64,000 nt of DNA, from contig OZ005689.1 of the NCBI GenBank assembly GCA_963930775.1, positions 20,961,262-21,025,261 on the forward strand, given 5' to 3'. The position numbers were made by a program, and so were the translations under genes. Under the pieces are notes generated by a model that was not told the origin of the DNA, searched no databases, and worked only from the letters and a program-made list of their open reading frames with translations. This document shows, in pieces, positions 39,184 through 53,537 of the stretch. The stretch comes from Cliona cf. orientalis. Taxonomy: Eukaryota > Porifera > Demospongiae > Clionaida > Clionaidae. Positions within the stretch are counted from its first letter, which is position 1, and each line of letters opens with the position of its first letter.

Positions 39184-39464
39184 TGTAATGGTCGGTGAAG
39201 TAGCCCGGCCGAGTAATAATATTACCAACGCACGATAACTTTTTATTATTGCATACGACTGACAGTACCAACTGACTATTTTACAGAATCACTGAGTCTA
39301 TATACCATGAGCATGAACGACAAAAGGTGCGTGTGCAAAAACCACCGTCCGTGTGCAAAACCACAACATACTAATCCAATAACCAATAATAATGACAATG
39401 ACAATAACTCATAATGATGATCAATGATACAGTTTGATAATAAGATCATAGGGTAACACAACTT
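39184..39464 (-). repeat. 3' LTR of gypsy element, first piece
   Basis: Near-identical to the first 280 bases of the LTR at 53206. It stops at ...ACACAACTT, where the 9.2-kb transposon starts, and continues at 48687. Confidence 0.95.
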
Positions 39465-40464
39465 CTCAGCGCTATTAAGGCCTGGGTCAGTGTGCATAGC
39501 TATAATATTTTTGTTATATTTAAAGCTTCATATCTCAGAAGTGCAGGATGCTAAGATGGTGGAAGTTGGACCAAATGTATGAGCAACTACTTCACTATCA
39601 TCGACTATAATTAAATTAACATTTCATGTTGATGACGTCACGGAGTGGGCGTGACCGTACTTGCTATATAAAACACTAAAATTACTTGGGCGGAAACTTT
39701 GCACGCTAGTGACAACCATTAAATTTTACATGCAGGTATACTGGCATGCAAGCTATCAACCCACGATTTAATATGGATTGTATGATGCCATGCCGTTGTA
39801 TAATGTACAACTCACCAGGTACGCATCTCATTAATTGGACTTTTCACGCCATTTCCAGCTCTACATGTCCATACTCGCCCCAGATTAACGGGCGAAATAG
39901 CTATTCTTCAACAACATTAATTTCTTAGGACAATACTTTTCGCCATAAATGAGCGGAAACTTTCCGCCTAGACTAGAGCCACTTGTGGACCCCCAAATGC
40001 GGCCATTACTGTATTGAGTCACATGACAAGTAGACTCCACCCACACATTAGGGCGCGCATAATTTTTATGCGCGATCTATGTTCGCATGCAAATAAAGCA
40101 GCTGCTCCAAGTCTTGACAGCAAACCACCTCAAGGTAAGTGATAATTGCCCACAGTCACATAATACAATAGCAATACTACAAAGTCATGATTGAGGCATT
40201 TGAGGACCAACAGAGCTATACATACACATAAGATTATACTAAGAGTAATATTAATGTCTTGCTCAAATGCACAGCAGGACCAGACCTGGATGTAAATGTA
40301 TTGTAAATTTTGTCGTTCTATAGCTCTGCTGTCCTCAACCAGCCTGATTTATACAATATGTGTGTATGCCTGCTGTATACATAATAACATGTGTATGCTT
40401 GTGTTCAAGAGGTGGTAGTTAGACTCCAGATCCATTCTTAAATCAGTATCTGTTGTGTTGACCT

Positions 40465-40545
40465 GTGTGTGTGTGTGTGTGTGTGTGTGTTGTGTTGTGT
40501 TGCATTGTGTTGTGTTGTGTTGTGTTGTGTGTGTGTGTGATAGAG
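40465..40545. repeat. GT / TGTGTTG microsatellite
   Basis: (GT)n followed by TGTTG-type pentamers in the left arm of the 9.2-kb transposon. Confidence 0.85.
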
Positions 40546-40929
40546 AGAAAGTGGGGAGGGGTGCATACTACCATTAGTGCTATAGATGTTATACCCTAGA
40601 GCAGGGGTTTCCGAAACTTACAAAATGTAGCCATTTCATAAGGATATTGCTGACCACAGCTGATAATAAACGATGGTTGTATGGGAAACACTGGCTATTC
40701 AATCCAGGGACTGGTAGCCAAAGTGAAAGGCTACAGTAGTAAATGGCTATTTGCATAGGGAACCCTTGCTCAAATTTAACTGTCATTAGATCATAGCTGT
40801 AACAAATACTGCAATTTGATTGGCTACTGACAGGTATCTATATCTCATAGTCACCTACAAGATTTTCATAGTCACCTACAAGTTTTGCCCTCTGGCTCTA
40901 GCAATACAAAGCTATATGATCTAAACTTG

Positions 40930-41064
40930 TTAGACACTGTTTAGTCAGTTTCTATGTGATTTAGAAGACCTCAGGGCTCTCATAGAACCCTCGCTTCGCT
41001 CGGGATTCTATATAGAGTCCTTCGGTCTTCTAAATCACATAGAAACCTCCTAAACAGTGTCTAA
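40930..41064. repeat. Long hairpin (foldback MITE-like, 135 bp)
   Basis: Arms TTAGACACTGTTTAG, GTTTCTATGTGATTTAGAAG and ACC are mirrored by the right arm ending CTAAACAGTGTCTAA. The centre holds CCTCGCTTCGCTCGG, itself a small hairpin. It lies in the probable 5' intron of the 1,219-residue gene. No clear target duplication. Confidence 0.75.
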
Positions 41065-41601
41065 CTAATATTTAGCCTCGTCGCCAGGCCCTTCCTGTGA
41101 AGGGGAGGAGAAAGGGCCCGGTACCACCTGTTGCACATGCATGCAGAAACTACAACAGCATGACCTGGGGTCTCATAAACAGCTGTACAGTAAATTTCAA
41201 ACACCTCATCACACGGCCTAAGATACACAAGGCTACACCAATATAATATACCCTAGTACCCTACGCTGCAGGAGGGGAAATATGTACAGATGTTTGTAGG
41301 ACCCCTGGGTCTAAAATGCACATTGTGTAAATAACGCGCGGATCCCATATGCCGGGCTTTGTCAGATACGGTCACATATACAGGTTGTACGCCTTCTATA
41401 ATTATGATAATATTTATGTATTTGTGCATGTATGCGTAGTCCACCAACGTCAAGGAAAGTGCCAAAGCACAAGAAACAACTTATAGCCAAAATAATATTG
41501 TGTAAGTTAAATGCTTATTAAGTTCTGTATGATTGCAAACTAATGACAACCCACAAACATACAACCACATAGCAGGACAGCTAAATCATACAAACTTCAA
41601 C

Positions 41602-44600
41602 ATGACTACACCTGCAATTAATTGTGGATTTGCCAGATGTGCTATCAGAGAACTTACGACGAGAAATACCGACAAGGTGAAACGAGCTTTTGAATTTCAC
41701 GAACTCTTTAAGGACTGCCCAAACTATGGAATTGAAGAATCATACTTCGATAAGATTGGCACGAATGACTCACTCTTTAACCGTCACTGTAGTAAAATTA
41801 TTGATTCTTGGCAGAAAAAATGGCACCCAAAGGAGTCTCGGCTAGACTATGAGAGAACTTTTGCCATCAGTAAATGGAAGGAACTACCAGATGATGAAAA
41901 ACAGCTGCATACCCTATCATGTTGTCATCAGTGTCATAAACTTCACCTAGACACTCAATCCAAGTTTCCACAGAAACCTATTTTTCAACCAACCCCCATT
42001 ATTTCACTGAACGATGAAGAGCTAAAGAGGATTGGAGCAAAGGATGGCACAAAGGGTGTCCTTAAAACACTAAACCAATCATTTAGAGAGGCATTTAATC
42101 AACCCTTCACTGATACACTTTTAACACATGGTGAATCACAGCTACAACGTAAGCCTACACAAGCGGAGATGAAGAAAAGACGACGACAGATATATAGAAA
42201 ATGCCGGGACAAGGAGAATGACAGGCTAAAGGAGACAGCATCAATGGCAGTACTGATGGAAGATGAATCTCTTCGAAGTTATCAACGTAAGAGATTGGCT
42301 CAGAATTTTGAGACTCCCCCAACTAAGAAAGCTAGAACAACAAAGTCACACTCACCTAATTTTGAAAACGTGTCATGGGACAAAGAAAGTGTCCTTCGTG
42401 ACCTTCGAAACCATCCACCTGCACCACCGCCTATAAACTGGCAGAAATTTGCAGAGGAACATCAAATCCCTGGTCAGAATCGAGGTCAAGTGGTGAAACA
42501 ATTTGCCAAACACTCAGGAATTGATACGGAGAAACTGGATGGCAGAAAACCGAACCAACGCTTGAGAAGAAGGAAACGAAGACTACTTGGTGGAGAAATC
42601 TCAGCACCACAGAATCCACCACCAAAAGTTCTACAACAGCAATGGAAGGCATTGGTCGATGATGGTGAGCTCTCACTTGGAATTCCATGTGCACCACTCA
42701 CATTAACCCACTTTATCACCAAGAATGGTCATCTTGAAAAGAATGAAGTGGTTGTGATGGGTCGTAAATTTCCATTAAGTGAGCTGAGGAAGACACTTTT
42801 GACAGCACAAGAGAAGTACATGAGGCTCAATACAGATGACGAGATCGATAGCATGCCTATGGAAGAGATAATTTCCCAAGCATCCAAATTTGATCACAAG
42901 TTTGATCAATCAACGAACATCAGTGAAATGAGAAAGAACATCAAACAATTTCAACGAACTCAACATCTGATATTGTGGCATGATCATGCAACCTTGCTAA
43001 ATTTGGGATGTGTTATGATGACCATACACGTTGCTTATGATCCAGCAGTGTTTCTTACATGTGCAGAATACGAAGATCGTACCGCAGCTGATGGTGGAGC
43101 AAAGCAGCTGCAGTCCATCATTGAGCGACCAGTCATCTACATGCTTGCAGCTGGATCATCATCCATCGAGGATCAAGCAGCTCTTGTGAATGATAGGGTG
43201 GACTGTCTCCACACCTTATCAGAACCAATAGAAACCAGCACTGGAATCAAGATCAATGACAAGCTCAGATTCTTTGTTGGGGACCATCCAGCCCAACAGT
43301 TCGAGCGGGGGACCCAGCAGGGAGGCAAGTATAAGTGTGGTGGGTGTGGAGTGATGGATGTTATGATGGATGACCTTGCATACACTTTGCAACAGCCAAG
43401 ACGTGACCTTCAAGGCATTCAGCAGCTAGCTACGGGTGGAAAGTTTGGGAGAGTTTCAGGAAAACTTAAACCATTTGATAAGCTCTTAGTGGCCCAACTG
43501 CGTGAAGAACTACATGCAAGAGGAAACTTTCACACAGATAGACGGAAAGATGAGCTTAGCAGTTCCTTGGAGGATACTCTTAGGGGAGTTCAACGTGTCC
43601 CCACAATACTATTGCTCAATCCTACTCAGCCCCTATCTAGGCTTAATCTACAAGACTACTGTGTGCTGGACAGTGAACCACTACATGATCTTAAGGGTCA
43701 TTTTGGTAACCTACTTAAGAAGCTTTCCTCTCTATTAGAGGGCAATATCAGGGACACATACGACCAAATTATCAAGTCAACAACAACTGACAAAATGACT
43801 GGAGCAGATTTCAGAATCACTGCAATCCAGATCTACTTGTTTTTCCTTGAGAAAACAGTATCACCAAACATCCTAAAAGTAATGGAAACTGCCGTCTGCA
43901 TGTCAAAAATGCTATATCTGTCTGACAAGGATCGTCACCCTCGACACATTCTACAATTATACAATGTTGCATGGCTACATCATGAACTCTGCCGTGAGCT
44001 TTTTGTACACTTTCACGGAGAAATCACAAGAAAACGGTTCTTTGGAACCTACCTGCATGCTCTTGTAGCTCATGCACCTCCTCAGCTAGAGATCGTGTCT
44101 CTAAGAACAGTTAACACTGAGAATCAAGAGAGGATTTTTGGCCAGGCCAGAAAAACTGCTACAGCTACGTCTAATCGACAACCACAAAATGTGATCAACT
44201 CAACGATACTTCGGCTTCAAGCGAAATCAGAGTTCAGAGATGTAACAGCAGTAGTTGCTCATGCAGAGAGCAAGGTAGCCAAAGCTAGTCACCATGTCCC
44301 ACCTTATGCAGGAACTCACATAGAAGAGGCATTTATATCATCACGAATGAAGAGTTGGCAACAACATCTTCAACGTATTAGCCCTTACTTAGTCATGGGG
44401 AAAGGTGTTTGGTGGGCTAAAACAGCACATGGATATCACTTTTATGATGGTGAGTGTGATGACAACAGTCATACTGAGGGTCCTGAACTTATGCATTTTA
44501 GATCAGCAAGATTAGAAGATGTTGCCGTTAGGCAGAAAGAATCATGGGAAAAAATATGTTTGATGGGAACGGAACTACCAACAATGCAAATACAGCTCTA

Positions 44601-45261
44601 CAATGATAGGGGATGCCCCAGCAATACTCTCACATTTCCCACAAATCAAGAAGACAACACAGAAGGAGTTATTGAAACAACTACGCCAGAAAGCAACAAT
44701 ATAAATGGATCATTGCCTGGGGACCTACACCTTCTAATGAGAGAGAGTACCCATAAGCACACAGATCTTGAAATTCTACAGGAGAGTACCCACGAGCACA
44801 CGGACCTTGAAATTCTACAGGTTCCCTCTACAAGTGAATTGTCTACAAATGAGATGTCTAGTGAGCTAGTTAATGCGAGTACTAACACAGACATAAGATT
44901 AACGCTGGAAAACACCCAAGAGCCATCCCCACAGTACAAAACAAAACATGCAAGCCAAATTGCTATTGTGATTGGCAATAAACCAGAACTAGCGGTCTTT
45001 GATAGTATTCGTCATCAGCTAAAAACACAAAGGCCTACAACGGAATGCAAAAACAAACATGATACACTTCTAGCCAATCTACAAACACTAGTTCAAAGGG
45101 AAAGGACTACAACCATGGAACAGATTAAAAAAATTGAACGAGATCATTACAACAAATACAGCACACTTCCTAATGAACACAACTGCTCCGAGTTAAAGGA
45201 ACTAATGACAAAATATAAACATGCAAGTAAGCTACTAGCACTGTGGAATATTATTATTTAA
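41602..45261 (+). CDS. Probable DDE transposase of the 9.2-kb element, intact, 1,219 residues
   Basis: A single uninterrupted frame, with ATG at 41602 chosen because upstream codons follow a plausible splice acceptor (41575). The N-terminus has Cys/His clusters (NCGFARC; CCHQCHKLH). A basic region (KKRRRQIYRKCRDKEND and RRRKRRLLGG) follows. Candidate catalytic acids: D461 (LILWHDHATLLNLG), D561 (FFVGDHPAQQFERG) followed by C579/C582 (KYKCGGCG), and E840 or E843 (NTENQERIFGQARK). H695 lies in EPLHDLKGHF. The large D-to-E spacing with CxxC and H resembles transposases with a helical insertion (CMC, KDZ, RAG1/Transib groups). Residues about 624-660 look like a SAP DNA-binding domain (LLVAQLREELHARG). 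The C-terminal third has a short in-frame duplication (EST-HEHTDLEILQ) and is polar. Not assigned to any named superfamily. Confidence 0.8.
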   Translation: MTTPAINCGFARCAIRELTTRNTDKVKRAFEFHELFKDCPNYGIEESYFDKIGTNDSLFNRHCSKIIDSWQKKWHPKESRLDYERTFAISKWKELPDDEKQLHTLSCCHQCHKLHLDTQSKFPQKPIFQPTPIISLNDEELKRIGAKDGTKGVLKTLNQSFREAFNQPFTDTLLTHGESQLQRKPTQAEMKKRRRQIYRKCRDKENDRLKETASMAVLMEDESLRSYQRKRLAQNFETPPTKKARTTKSHSPNFENVSWDKESVLRDLRNHPPAPPPINWQKFAEEHQIPGQNRGQVVKQFAKHSGIDTEKLDGRKPNQRLRRRKRRLLGGEISAPQNPPPKVLQQQWKALVDDGELSLGIPCAPLTLTHFITKNGHLEKNEVVVMGRKFPLSELRKTLLTAQEKYMRLNTDDEIDSMPMEEIISQASKFDHKFDQSTNISEMRKNIKQFQRTQHLILWHDHATLLNLGCVMMTIHVAYDPAVFLTCAEYEDRTAADGGAKQLQSIIERPVIYMLAAGSSSIEDQAALVNDRVDCLHTLSEPIETSTGIKINDKLRFFVGDHPAQQFERGTQQGGKYKCGGCGVMDVMMDDLAYTLQQPRRDLQGIQQLATGGKFGRVSGKLKPFDKLLVAQLREELHARGNFHTDRRKDELSSSLEDTLRGVQRVPTILLLNPTQPLSRLNLQDYCVLDSEPLHDLKGHFGNLLKKLSSLLEGNIRDTYDQIIKSTTTDKMTGADFRITAIQIYLFFLEKTVSPNILKVMETAVCMSKMLYLSDKDRHPRHILQLYNVAWLHHELCRELFVHFHGEITRKRFFGTYLHALVAHAPPQLEIVSLRTVNTENQERIFGQARKTATATSNRQPQNVINSTILRLQAKSEFRDVTAVVAHAESKVAKASHHVPPYAGTHIEEAFISSRMKSWQQHLQRISPYLVMGKGVWWAKTAHGYHFYDGECDDNSHTEGPELMHFRSARLEDVAVRQKESWEKICLMGTELPTMQIQLYNDRGCPSNTLTFPTNQEDNTEGVIETTTPESNNINGSLPGDLHLLMRESTHKHTDLEILQESTHEHTDLEILQVPSTSELSTNEMSSELVNASTNTDIRLTLENTQEPSPQYKTKHASQIAIVIGNKPELAVFDSIRHQLKTQRPTTECKNKHDTLLANLQTLVQRERTTTMEQIKKIERDHYNKYSTLPNEHNCSELKELMTKYKHASKLLALWNIII

Positions 45262-45419
45262 TGTTTGTACAATCTCACAACACGTATACTGCTCACACTC
45301 ATGTAAAACATGCATGTAATGTAGATTTATATCTCGTTTTTATGACAACATAAAAAATCAGATAATTTGATAATGAGGGTAACTCTCACATGCCCATACA
45401 TTTATGTACCTATACATAA

Positions 45420-45847
45420 TACAACTACATGTACATGAGCAAAGTGAAGGAGCCCTTGGTGTTACATGTACATTATAATATGATACACACACTCACAGCA
45501 CACATATGCGAGGTCACACACATGTGCATACTCTCTCCCAATACACATATCCACACTACCAAACAAATACTACATGTATATGCGTATAATATACATGTAC
45601 ACACATACACACATATACATACACGTGTATGTATCACACACATACAATCGCCTACACACACATGTATGCTCACATCCATCCAAACACACACACACACACA
45701 CTAGCACCAGATAGATATATATTCATCATTGGCCTACTTTATGATAACCCACCCCCTTCCTATAGCCGGCAAATTGCCTATAAAAACTTTAGTTGCTAGG
45801 CAACTACCAACAAACACTCGCATAAACGCATACACATACCACACATA

Positions 45848-45899
<52 letters not shown>

Positions 45900-45993
45900 C
45901 ACCACATACATTATGTATGGGGGTATCCCCAATGGATATTCAATTTAAGAACAGCCTCAACGTAGATAGACATTCACCTGCTTCAACATACAT

Positions 45994-46031
<38 letters not shown>

Positions 46032-46120
46032 ATGTATACATACATTGTACACTCATACTCCATATACACATATGCTCGCATTCACACACACTCGCACATA
46101 CACATACCACATACATACAT

Positions 46121-46152
<32 letters not shown>

Positions 46153-46237
46153 TAGCACCACATATGGGTATCCCAAATGGATATTTATTTAAGAACAGCC
46201 TCAACGTAGATAGACATTCACCTGCTTCAACATACAT

Positions 46238-46285
<48 letters not shown>

Positions 46286-47480
46286 ATACATACATTGTAC
46301 ACTCATACTCCACATACACATATGCTCACATTCACACACACTCGCGCATACACATACCACATACACACACACTAGCACCACATGCATACATTGTATGGGT
46401 ATTCTCAATGAATATTCAAAAGGTTTATTTAAGAACAACCTAAACGTACATAGACATTCAGCACCTAGCACCCCTATATAGAAGGGCTCATATTGCTCAC
46501 TCACTGTAGGATTATGTAATCCTGCACACCTAATTGGATTGTGGCTAGAGTGTATGGCATGTACTCTGGGTGACTGCTCAACAACCAGTTTTATAACACT
46601 CTCGAACACTACTCTACTGTACTTGGTTGCTTAGTAACTTACAACAAATACAAATACACTCACATACATGTGCATACACACTTTCACATGCACTACACTC
46701 ACATACACACATAATTAATTATACTCCACACACACGCTCATACTCCACATGCACATATGCTCGCATTCACACAAACACACTCGCGCATACACATACCACA
46801 TAATATACTCTCTCTCTCACACACACACACACACACTAGGACCCACCCACATTGTAAGGGTATCCCCAATCAATGTAGGCAGACATTCACCTGCTTCAAG
46901 AGGACCCTTCTAATTGTCAAAGCCAGGCACCTAGCACCCCTATATACATGCAGCTACACTTGCACACTCGTATAATATTATGCATATACAAATACACTCA
47001 CATACACACACACATTCATGTACATGTGCATACACACTTTCACATACACATACACTACACTCACATACATTCGCATACACATACATTAATGGTGGCTGAC
47101 CTGGCGCTATGGCCTACATGTACTTTATGACCCAACCCCTTCCCATAGCTGCCTATAAAACTTGGGTTGCAACTACCAACAAGCACATGCATACATGCAC
47201 TCACACTCATATATACACAATTTTTTGACCTTTTACTATTATAGACACAATAAAAGGTCATGAACTCTACAACAGCTGTTACACAAATTAGAATACTCTC
47301 CAAACCAAAACACCTGCACATTTTTGCACAATGTACATGTACATATATCTTGCACACACTCATACACATACCTGCAGTACTCAACAGATGGCATATGACA
47401 AAAGGTCATGAACTCGACAACAGAAATTAGGATACACTCCCATCCAGACACCTGCACATTTTGCATAATGTACATGTACA
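45420..47480. repeat. CA-rich minisatellite region
   Basis: Units of about 220-260 bp begin CTAGCACCACAT and include GGGTATCCCCAATGGATATT, AAGAACAGCCTCAACGTAGA, GACATTCACCTGCTTCAACA and long (CA)n runs, at about 45896, 46153 and 46372, with a diverged unit at 46837. A second duplication of about 130 bp (AAAGGTCATGAACTC...CACCTGCACATTTT) lies at 47250 and 47400. Long open frames on both strands reflect the CA repeats. Confidence 0.85.
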
Positions 47481-48666
47481 TACACTCAATAATAATAATA
47501 TTATGTCAACCGGTATTCATACCATGCATACCATAGTGTCCCAGGCTCCCTGTAAGTGTCCATGTACTGCACTTCAAGGGGTCAATGTAGCATTATGCAT
47601 ACCCCATGCAGGCAAAAATTGCAACTTGTGCTTAATCGCCCATGAGCTCTTACCCGGGACACTACAATACGTAAGACTCGCCAAGTGACAGCAGTATGTA
47701 GTGTAATAACTTGCACAACTTTAGAACATGCACCCTTCATGCACGTACAAAGGGCCTGGTTAAAAAAGGTTGCTTTTTTGTCCTTGAAGTACATAATATT
47801 GCTGGTTGCAAAAGCGTGATCATGTGACATTATTGGAATGTAATGATCTGTGGGGCATACTGGCATGTGTGTGCCCACCTTATGCACACAGCTCAAGGAA
47901 GTGGTGGTTAGTTTCTATTTAACACACACCAAAGTTGGCATTCAAGCTGGATATGCTACCTTTCGATCAGACTATTTGAGTGGGTGGGGCTGGCATGCGG
48001 GACTACACAGATACTGACGCGTGTATGTAAATCGAAATTCACATCATACACTACATACGCATCAAAGTTAATCTGGAATTATCAGAGCACAAAAATCTAT
48101 AATCAAGGGCTTGAGTACCTTTGCTATTATATTTATAATATTATAATATTATTATAATTTTACCTGATAGTCCGATCTTTTATGTACAATTCTTGATGGA
48201 ACTATATGTACACTGTACAAGAGCAAAATTAATAAAATCAGTCATCAATACAAATAAGGCGGGCTTGATATTCTAAAACTTACCTCCGCAGTACTGTCCC
48301 TGTCCAATATCCATCGCTGAGTACGCTGGGTACCTCAAGCGGTGACCGTAGCTTCGATCGTCGTACTGAGCGGCACGGTTTGAATATTCTCAGCCATGTT
48401 TACAGGCCCAAAGCGGTGTACTTTCCTTTGGCAATGGGTTCCTTCTATGAACGATTGTACGTCCTGTAGCTCGGCTCTCGACAAGTCGACAAGTACATAA
48501 CATAGTAGCTAGCTTATACTCGATGTGAATTTATCACGAGGGCTCGACTTATTATTTCGCGATTAACGTAGGCGTGGCCGTCATAAGCGCGTGACCACAC
48601 GTCATTTCCATAGTAACGCGGGCGCCGCAGACCAAGCGTGGGTGGAAGCGGGAGTTTCAGCTTGGA
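47481..48666. other. Right arm of the 9.2-kb transposon, no gene seen
   Basis: AT-rich, then CpG-rich from about 48270 (GCGTGACC, ACGCGGGCGCC). No convincing coding sequence. Confidence 0.5.
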
Positions 48667-48686
48667 CAGGCCTTAATAGCGCTGAG

Positions 48687-48738
48687 TTACTAATAGTAAT
48701 GATGATGATTAATGTCACAGTCACATCTGTTCACTACA
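48687..48738 (-). repeat. 3' LTR of gypsy element, second piece
   Basis: TTACTAATAG...CACTACA matches 53483-53537 apart from one fewer GAT triplet. It starts with the duplicated TT. Confidence 0.93.
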
Positions 48739-48755
48739 CAGCCCCCCTCTCTCAG
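48739..48755 (-). promoter_or_regulatory. Polypurine tract of gypsy element
   Basis: On the minus strand GAGAGAGGGGGGCTG lies directly before the 3' LTR, the usual position for the plus-strand DNA primer. Confidence 0.8.
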
Positions 48756-53205: not shown

Positions 53206-53537
53206 TGTAATGGTCGGTGAAGTAGCCCGGCCGAGTAATAATATTACCAACGCACGATAACTTTTTATTATTGCATACGACTGACTGTACCAACTGACTA
53301 TTTTACAGAATCACTGAGTCTATGTACCATGAGCATGAACGACAAAAGGTGCGTGTGCAAAAACCACCGTCCGTGTGCAAAACCACAACATACTAATCCA
53401 ACAACCAATAATAATGACAATGACAATAACTCATAATGATGATCAATGATAGTTTGATAATAAGATCATAGGGTAACACAACTTACTAATAGTAATGATG
53501 ATGATGATTAATGTCACAGTCACATCTGTTCACTACA
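53206..53537 (-). repeat. 5' LTR of gypsy element (intact)
   Basis: 332 bp, TGTAATGG...CACTACA. It serves as the empty-site reference for the 9.2-kb transposon inserted in the other LTR. Confidence 0.93.

Follow-up and report, generated by a model that had tools for sequence, protein, structure and literature searches.

A CTCAG-ended DNA transposon of the sponge Cliona cf. orientalis with a predicted RNase H-fold transposase and a probable place in the CMCT clade

To which group of transposons belongs a 9,222-bp element that interrupts a long terminal repeat (LTR) in the genome of the sponge Cliona cf. orientalis and carries a long open reading frame (ORF), P0001, coding for 1,219 residues? 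The element lies in a stretch of 64,000 nucleotides (contig OZ005689.1, positions 20,961,262–21,025,261, here called the window). The original prediction, made from the letters of the window, proposed that its transposase belongs to an undescribed superfamily or to a far branch of CMC. We suggest, with a probability of roughly 0.8, that the element is an autonomous cut-and-paste DNA transposon of the CMCT clade whose lineage, perhaps of superfamily rank, is unnamed in the material compared (Repbase lies outside this material). The clade includes CACTA/EnSpm, Mirage, Chapaev and Transib/RAG1 (PMC12730594). This suggestion draws on the ends, the target duplications, an empty site, the intact ORF, residue conservation and the predicted fold of the protein, and activity is spoken of below as a prediction. 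The features are collected in Table 1.

The element is bounded by 20-bp terminal inverted repeats (TIR; CTCAGCGCTATTAAGGCCTG) whose arms are identical, and at up to three mismatches there is no further match in the window nor in 100 shuffles. The left flank ends with ...ACACAACTT and the right flank begins with TTACTAATAG, while the intact partner LTR reads ...ACACAACTTACTAATAG and has a single TT. When the flanks are joined and one TT is removed, 327 of 335 columns align with the partner LTR (5 gap positions). As the LTRs align so well once the element and one TT are taken out, the insertions of the DNA transposon and of its host retroelement, which we read as Gypsy-like from the ORFs of the window, both look young, and the transposon is the younger one. 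The original prediction had stated that the ends are perfect and that the insertion is younger than its host LTR, and both statements hold. Its TT duplication is confirmed for the window copy but not as a fixed target, because copies elsewhere carry other dinucleotides.

Table 1. Positions of the element, its flanks and the proposed functional residues of P0001 in the window.
Feature	Position	Strand	Basis
Whole DNA transposon, 9,222 bp	39465..48686	+	TIRs and duplication; second copy C1:35136932-35148807
Left TIR, 20 bp	39465..39484	+	CTCAGCGCTATTAAGGCCTG
Right TIR, 20 bp	48667..48686	-	CTCAGCGCTATTAAGGCCTG
TT target duplication, left copy	39463..39464	.	flanks compared with partner LTR
TT target duplication, right copy	48687..48688	.	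flanks compared with partner LTR
Host LTR, part left of insertion	39184..39464	.	
Host LTR, part right of insertion	48689..48739	.	
Partner LTR, intact, with empty site	53206..53537	.	
Transposase ORF P0001, 1,219 aa	41602..45261	+	uninterrupted; relatives; structure model
D461, proposed first catalytic Asp (WHDH)	42982..42984	+	D in 98% of 49 rows; first strand of predicted RNase H fold
D561, proposed second catalytic Asp (GDHPA)	43282..43284	+	55/55 rows; predicted strand end
C579-x2-C582	43336..43347	+	54/54 and 55/55 rows
SAP-like segment, about residues 630-666 (profile positions)	43489..43599	+	family profile against 1zrj, E 0.0012
H695 (EPLHDLKGH), third His of CMCT signature	43684..43686	+	55/55 rows
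H819-x4-H824	44056..44073	+	49/49 and 50/50 rows
E840, proposed catalytic Glu (NTENQER)	44119..44121	+	49/49 rows; predicted helix start

The same ends recur throughout the genome (216.8 Mb in 149 contigs). With up to three mismatches the 20-bp end is found at 71 + 61 places, against 1 + 2 for the reversed pattern. From 100 of these 132 places we formed 27 pairs of facing ends no more than 12 kb apart, the window copy included, leaving aside facing pairs about 21.7 kb and 54 kb apart; the ORF-bearing pair L036+L065, whose right end has 4 mismatches, brought the set to 28. An exact 2-bp duplication flanks 25 of them and an exact 3-bp duplication the other three (CAA, TCT, ACA), compared to a mean of 3.8 and a maximum of 12 two-bp matches in 10,000 shuffles of the right flanks. 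The motif CTCAG-N5-TTAAGG has 531 + 578 sites in the genome (1,109), its reverse 91 + 77 (168). Among 100 listed motif places there were 33 new facing pairs, and each of the 20 that we chose before seeing their flanks is bordered by an exact duplication of 2 bp (after shuffling, mean 4.6 and maximum 11). Altogether 45 of 48 copies show 2 bp and three show 3 bp, and the 45 exact 2-bp duplications comprise 11 different dinucleotides, with TA in 14. The genome-wide search which the original prediction had asked for yields a shared end and a predominance of 2-bp duplications. All 95 tabulated ends start with CTCA and have TTAAGG at positions 11–16, although these ends were picked by resemblance and 40 of them by the motif itself. 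Most of the paired copies examined are short and have no ORF. The copy L019 has two left ends, at positions 101 and 264, which lie 163 bp apart with the same flank before a single right end; the left end is here duplicated in part.

The long uninterrupted gene of the original prediction is real in the sense that the frame is open from the ATG to the stop codon, and the residues N7-C8-G9, common to the relatives (30 alignment rows with a letter there), support this start. The layout proposed earlier, D461/D561-CxxC/E840-843, is conserved at its D, C and E residues. E843 is as invariant as E840 (49/49 rows each), so that E840 as the proposed catalytic residue is our choice, and the pair H819/H824 has to be added to the layout. 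The invariant H695 of EPLHDLKGH, likewise noted before, fits the histidine that stands alone as the third one in the CMCT signature rather than the His pair. The SAP-like segment recognized earlier is corroborated by the family profile, which among PDB sequences matches three SAP-type chains (1zrj with E 0.0012, the others with E 1.3 and 1.4) and no transposase. Pfam SAP is found in 21 of 40 family members at E≤0.1; P0001 itself has no SAP match, no PDB sequence match and, at E≤10, no Pfam family at all, PF02992 included. Therefore automatic annotation would probably miss the family.

The predicted structure of P0001 has an RNase H fold, and among solved structures RAG1 matches it best, ahead of Transib. 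The comparison with RNase H-fold transposases suggested by the original prediction came out as a RAG1-type fold, but the match is not specific, as the model of an EnSpm transposase used as a control matches RAG1 equally well. For this reason we dropped the claim of a specific kinship with RAG1/Transib. In PMC12730594 the CMCT clade is defined by the DDE triad, a C(2)C and an H(3-4)H motif, a third His, duplications of 2–5 bp and mostly CA..TG ends. As judged from conservation and the predicted fold, P0001 would have the triad in an RNase H fold; C579/C582, H695 and H819-x4-H824 lie between the second D and the E, and the 2- and 3-bp duplications are within the range given there. The eight signature residues follow the same order as in RAG1 and EnSpm, and the intervals are also similar to both except that from CxxC to the third His, which has 113 residues here compared to 65 in RAG1 and 77 in EnSpm and holds the SAP-like segment.

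Several points weigh against our reading. The ends are CT..AG and not the usual CA..TG, even though PMC12730594 states these termini for 'most cases' and so does not demand them of every member. Profile comparison with hhalign remained not significant, both for the family with RAG1 (E 0.034, probability 1.5) and for the family with 12 EnSpm ORFs of the same genome (E 0.55); with deeper alignments the EnSpm comparison reached E 0.021, outside the motif register, and EnSpm against RAG1 gave E 0.18. The structure is a predicted and not a solved one, and the pairing of residues with RAG1, numbered by way of PDB alignments of a typed RAG1 sequence, is our own reading except for the stretch from HxxxxH to E, which hhalign registered without significance. 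In addition, the window copy has Q at residue 454, a position occupied by R in 96% of 49 rows, and its own activity is therefore uncertain.

Could the element then belong to a CMC superfamily that already has a name, Mirage or the animal CACTA/EnSpm, as a diverged branch with ends that have drifted from CAC? We regard this as unlikely, even though the predicted fold is that of an EnSpm transposase and the signature order is the same. Mirage duplicates 2 bp, a point brought up by the original prediction alone. A tunicate CACTA element does so too (PMC6004678), and duplications of this length are by themselves no novelty. Against such a branch, P0001 lacks a PF02992 match, phmmer found no match between P0001 and 16 PF02992 ORFs of the same genome, the profile comparisons were not significant, and the ends are CTCAG instead of CAC..GTG. 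P0001 also differs from EnSpm in having H-x4-H where the protein P0078 has H-x3-H, and in the SAP-like segment that follows CxxC and precedes the third His; the EnSpm model has a BAH-like C-terminal part instead. The genome is rich in EnSpm elements (77 PF02992 matches, many with open frames of 600–980 aa); the ends of an EnSpm copy pair were looked for in it and could not be resolved, so there is no local control for EnSpm ends. P0078 has K at residue 579, where 50 of 53 EnSpm-type rows have E, and may thus have lost its catalytic activity.

That the element branches off beside RAG1 and Transib within the clade appears improbable to us. Such a position would agree with the best solved structural match, RAG1 above Transib, with the H-x4-H spacing shared with RAG1, and with the fact that just one stretch was put in motif register by a program, the one from HxxxxH to E in the alignment with RAG1. 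However, Transib elements have CAC ends and 5-bp duplications, in contrast to CTCAG ends, 2–3 bp and a longer CxxC-to-His interval here, and the RAG1 core fold is equally predicted for the EnSpm control.

Other members of the clade differ as well. Chapaev shares the membership (PMC12730594), but PMC4079192 gives CAC..GTG ends and 3–4 bp duplications for it, and TWA for Chapaev3, unlike the CTCAG ends and mostly 2-bp duplications found here. ESTA, also a member, has 2-bp duplications like our element, but its target is TA (PMC12730594), as opposed to 11 dinucleotides here. The literature further records that Chapaev and Mirage were earlier merged into EnSpm on weak similarity. No paper describing the element was found among titles and abstract openings, a range outside which Repbase Reports and most subscription journals fall. 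Tc1/mariner elements duplicate TA and hAT elements 8 bp; both readings were dropped, given duplications of varied sequence and of 2–3 bp. A KDZ reading (Kyakuja and Zisupton, grouped with Dileera) was dropped for the same kind of reason, the duplications of Kyakuja and Zisupton being 7–8 bp (PMC12730594).

The searches reached no named superfamily, which suggests a separate one, set apart by comparisons that draw on neither Repbase nor PSI-BLAST. In this more specific form our proposal is a new superfamily of animals that branched early (sponges and a gorgonian at least), forming its own branch inside the RAG1-ancestral clade or at its base. The RNase H fold of its transposase would contain a SAP domain within the helical insertion, the ends would read CTCAG-N5-TTAAGG, and the 2-bp stagger would be able to stretch to 3. 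We hold the chances for and against this superfamily to be even, since the sequence-level comparison with the named groups was negative as far as it could be made, and 20 of 33 pairs make up the second duplication set. The far CMC branch of the original prediction is largely right; the placement at the sequence level is not significant.

Do the ORF and the ends belong together? The second full copy (C1:35136932-35148807, L032+L033) codes for a protein 99.6% identical to P0001. The two differ in 4 residues and in one codon that the second copy lacks, and 7 of 3,654 nucleotides are changed; TT is duplicated in both. The values of dN (0.0014) and dS (0.0038) between these copies rest on too few changes to show selection. 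The second copy is about 2.65 kb longer owing to an insertion near element position 755, which perhaps carries a 4-bp duplication. A protein search of the genome gave at least 52 matching stretches, among them stop-free frames at 44, 33 and 32% identity and many others with stops. Ends were found for L036+L065 (54% identity, frame with one stop, duplication AA), for L066 (44%, AA) and for L068 (32%, TIR 19/20 bases alike, TA, in an end search that itself demanded a matching duplication), but not for L067 (33%) within the 10 kb fetched. As both occur in the window copy, L032+L033, L036+L065, L066 and L068, ORF and ends travel together over deep divergence. This joint occurrence, together with the transposase-type predicted fold and the signature residues, makes it very improbable that the ORF stems from the host or is a mere passenger, moved between its ends by another transposase, as the many paired copies without ORF might suggest.

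Searches for related proteins gave 56 sequences in a first round (the window's own included) and 21 in a second (the query included); the organisms named are Ephydatia muelleri (P0048, P0069) and Paramuricea clavata (P0075). No transposase domain of Pfam is among the domains listed for these relatives, only SAP and PF10281, and PF02992 is absent from the families listed for 40 of them. Neither viral contigs (8 pattern stretches) nor prokaryote contigs (11) contained a confirmed relative.

For the transposon proposed here we envisage that the 1,219-aa transposase would recognize the CTCAG-N5-TTAAGG ends, conceivably binding them by its N-terminal and SAP-like parts. Cutting would be carried out by the D461-D561-E840 active site with its helical insertion, braced by a putative C2H2 zinc site, and the ends would be joined to opposite target strands 2 bp, sometimes 3 bp, apart with a mild A/T preference. 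RAG1, Transib and hAT excise via nicks and hairpins on the flanking DNA, and by analogy this is the probable route here. As the short copies share their ends with the ORF-bearing copies, the same enzyme probably moves them in trans.

The two near-identical full copies and the many short ones suggest recent activity, so that an assay of cleavage and integration in vitro appears practical. The ancestors of V(D)J recombination belong to the CMCT clade, and a lineage that shares the predicted fold but has other ends and a 2-bp stagger makes it possible to ask which features of RAG1 are old (the fold, the CxxC and His signature) and which are derived (CAC recognition, the 5-bp stagger). If the new superfamily is real, RAG1-fold transposases in basal animals are more diverse than the known CAC-ended elements.

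Outside the ORF, the single-strand fold of the left end is not remarkable (z 1.04). Downstream of the ORF the element contains a long CA-rich simple repeat with a unit of about 240 bp (45588-47503). Upstream of it there is an inverted repeat (40929-41065; 52 nt, 88% complementary, 33-nt spacer) which is possibly a small nested element.
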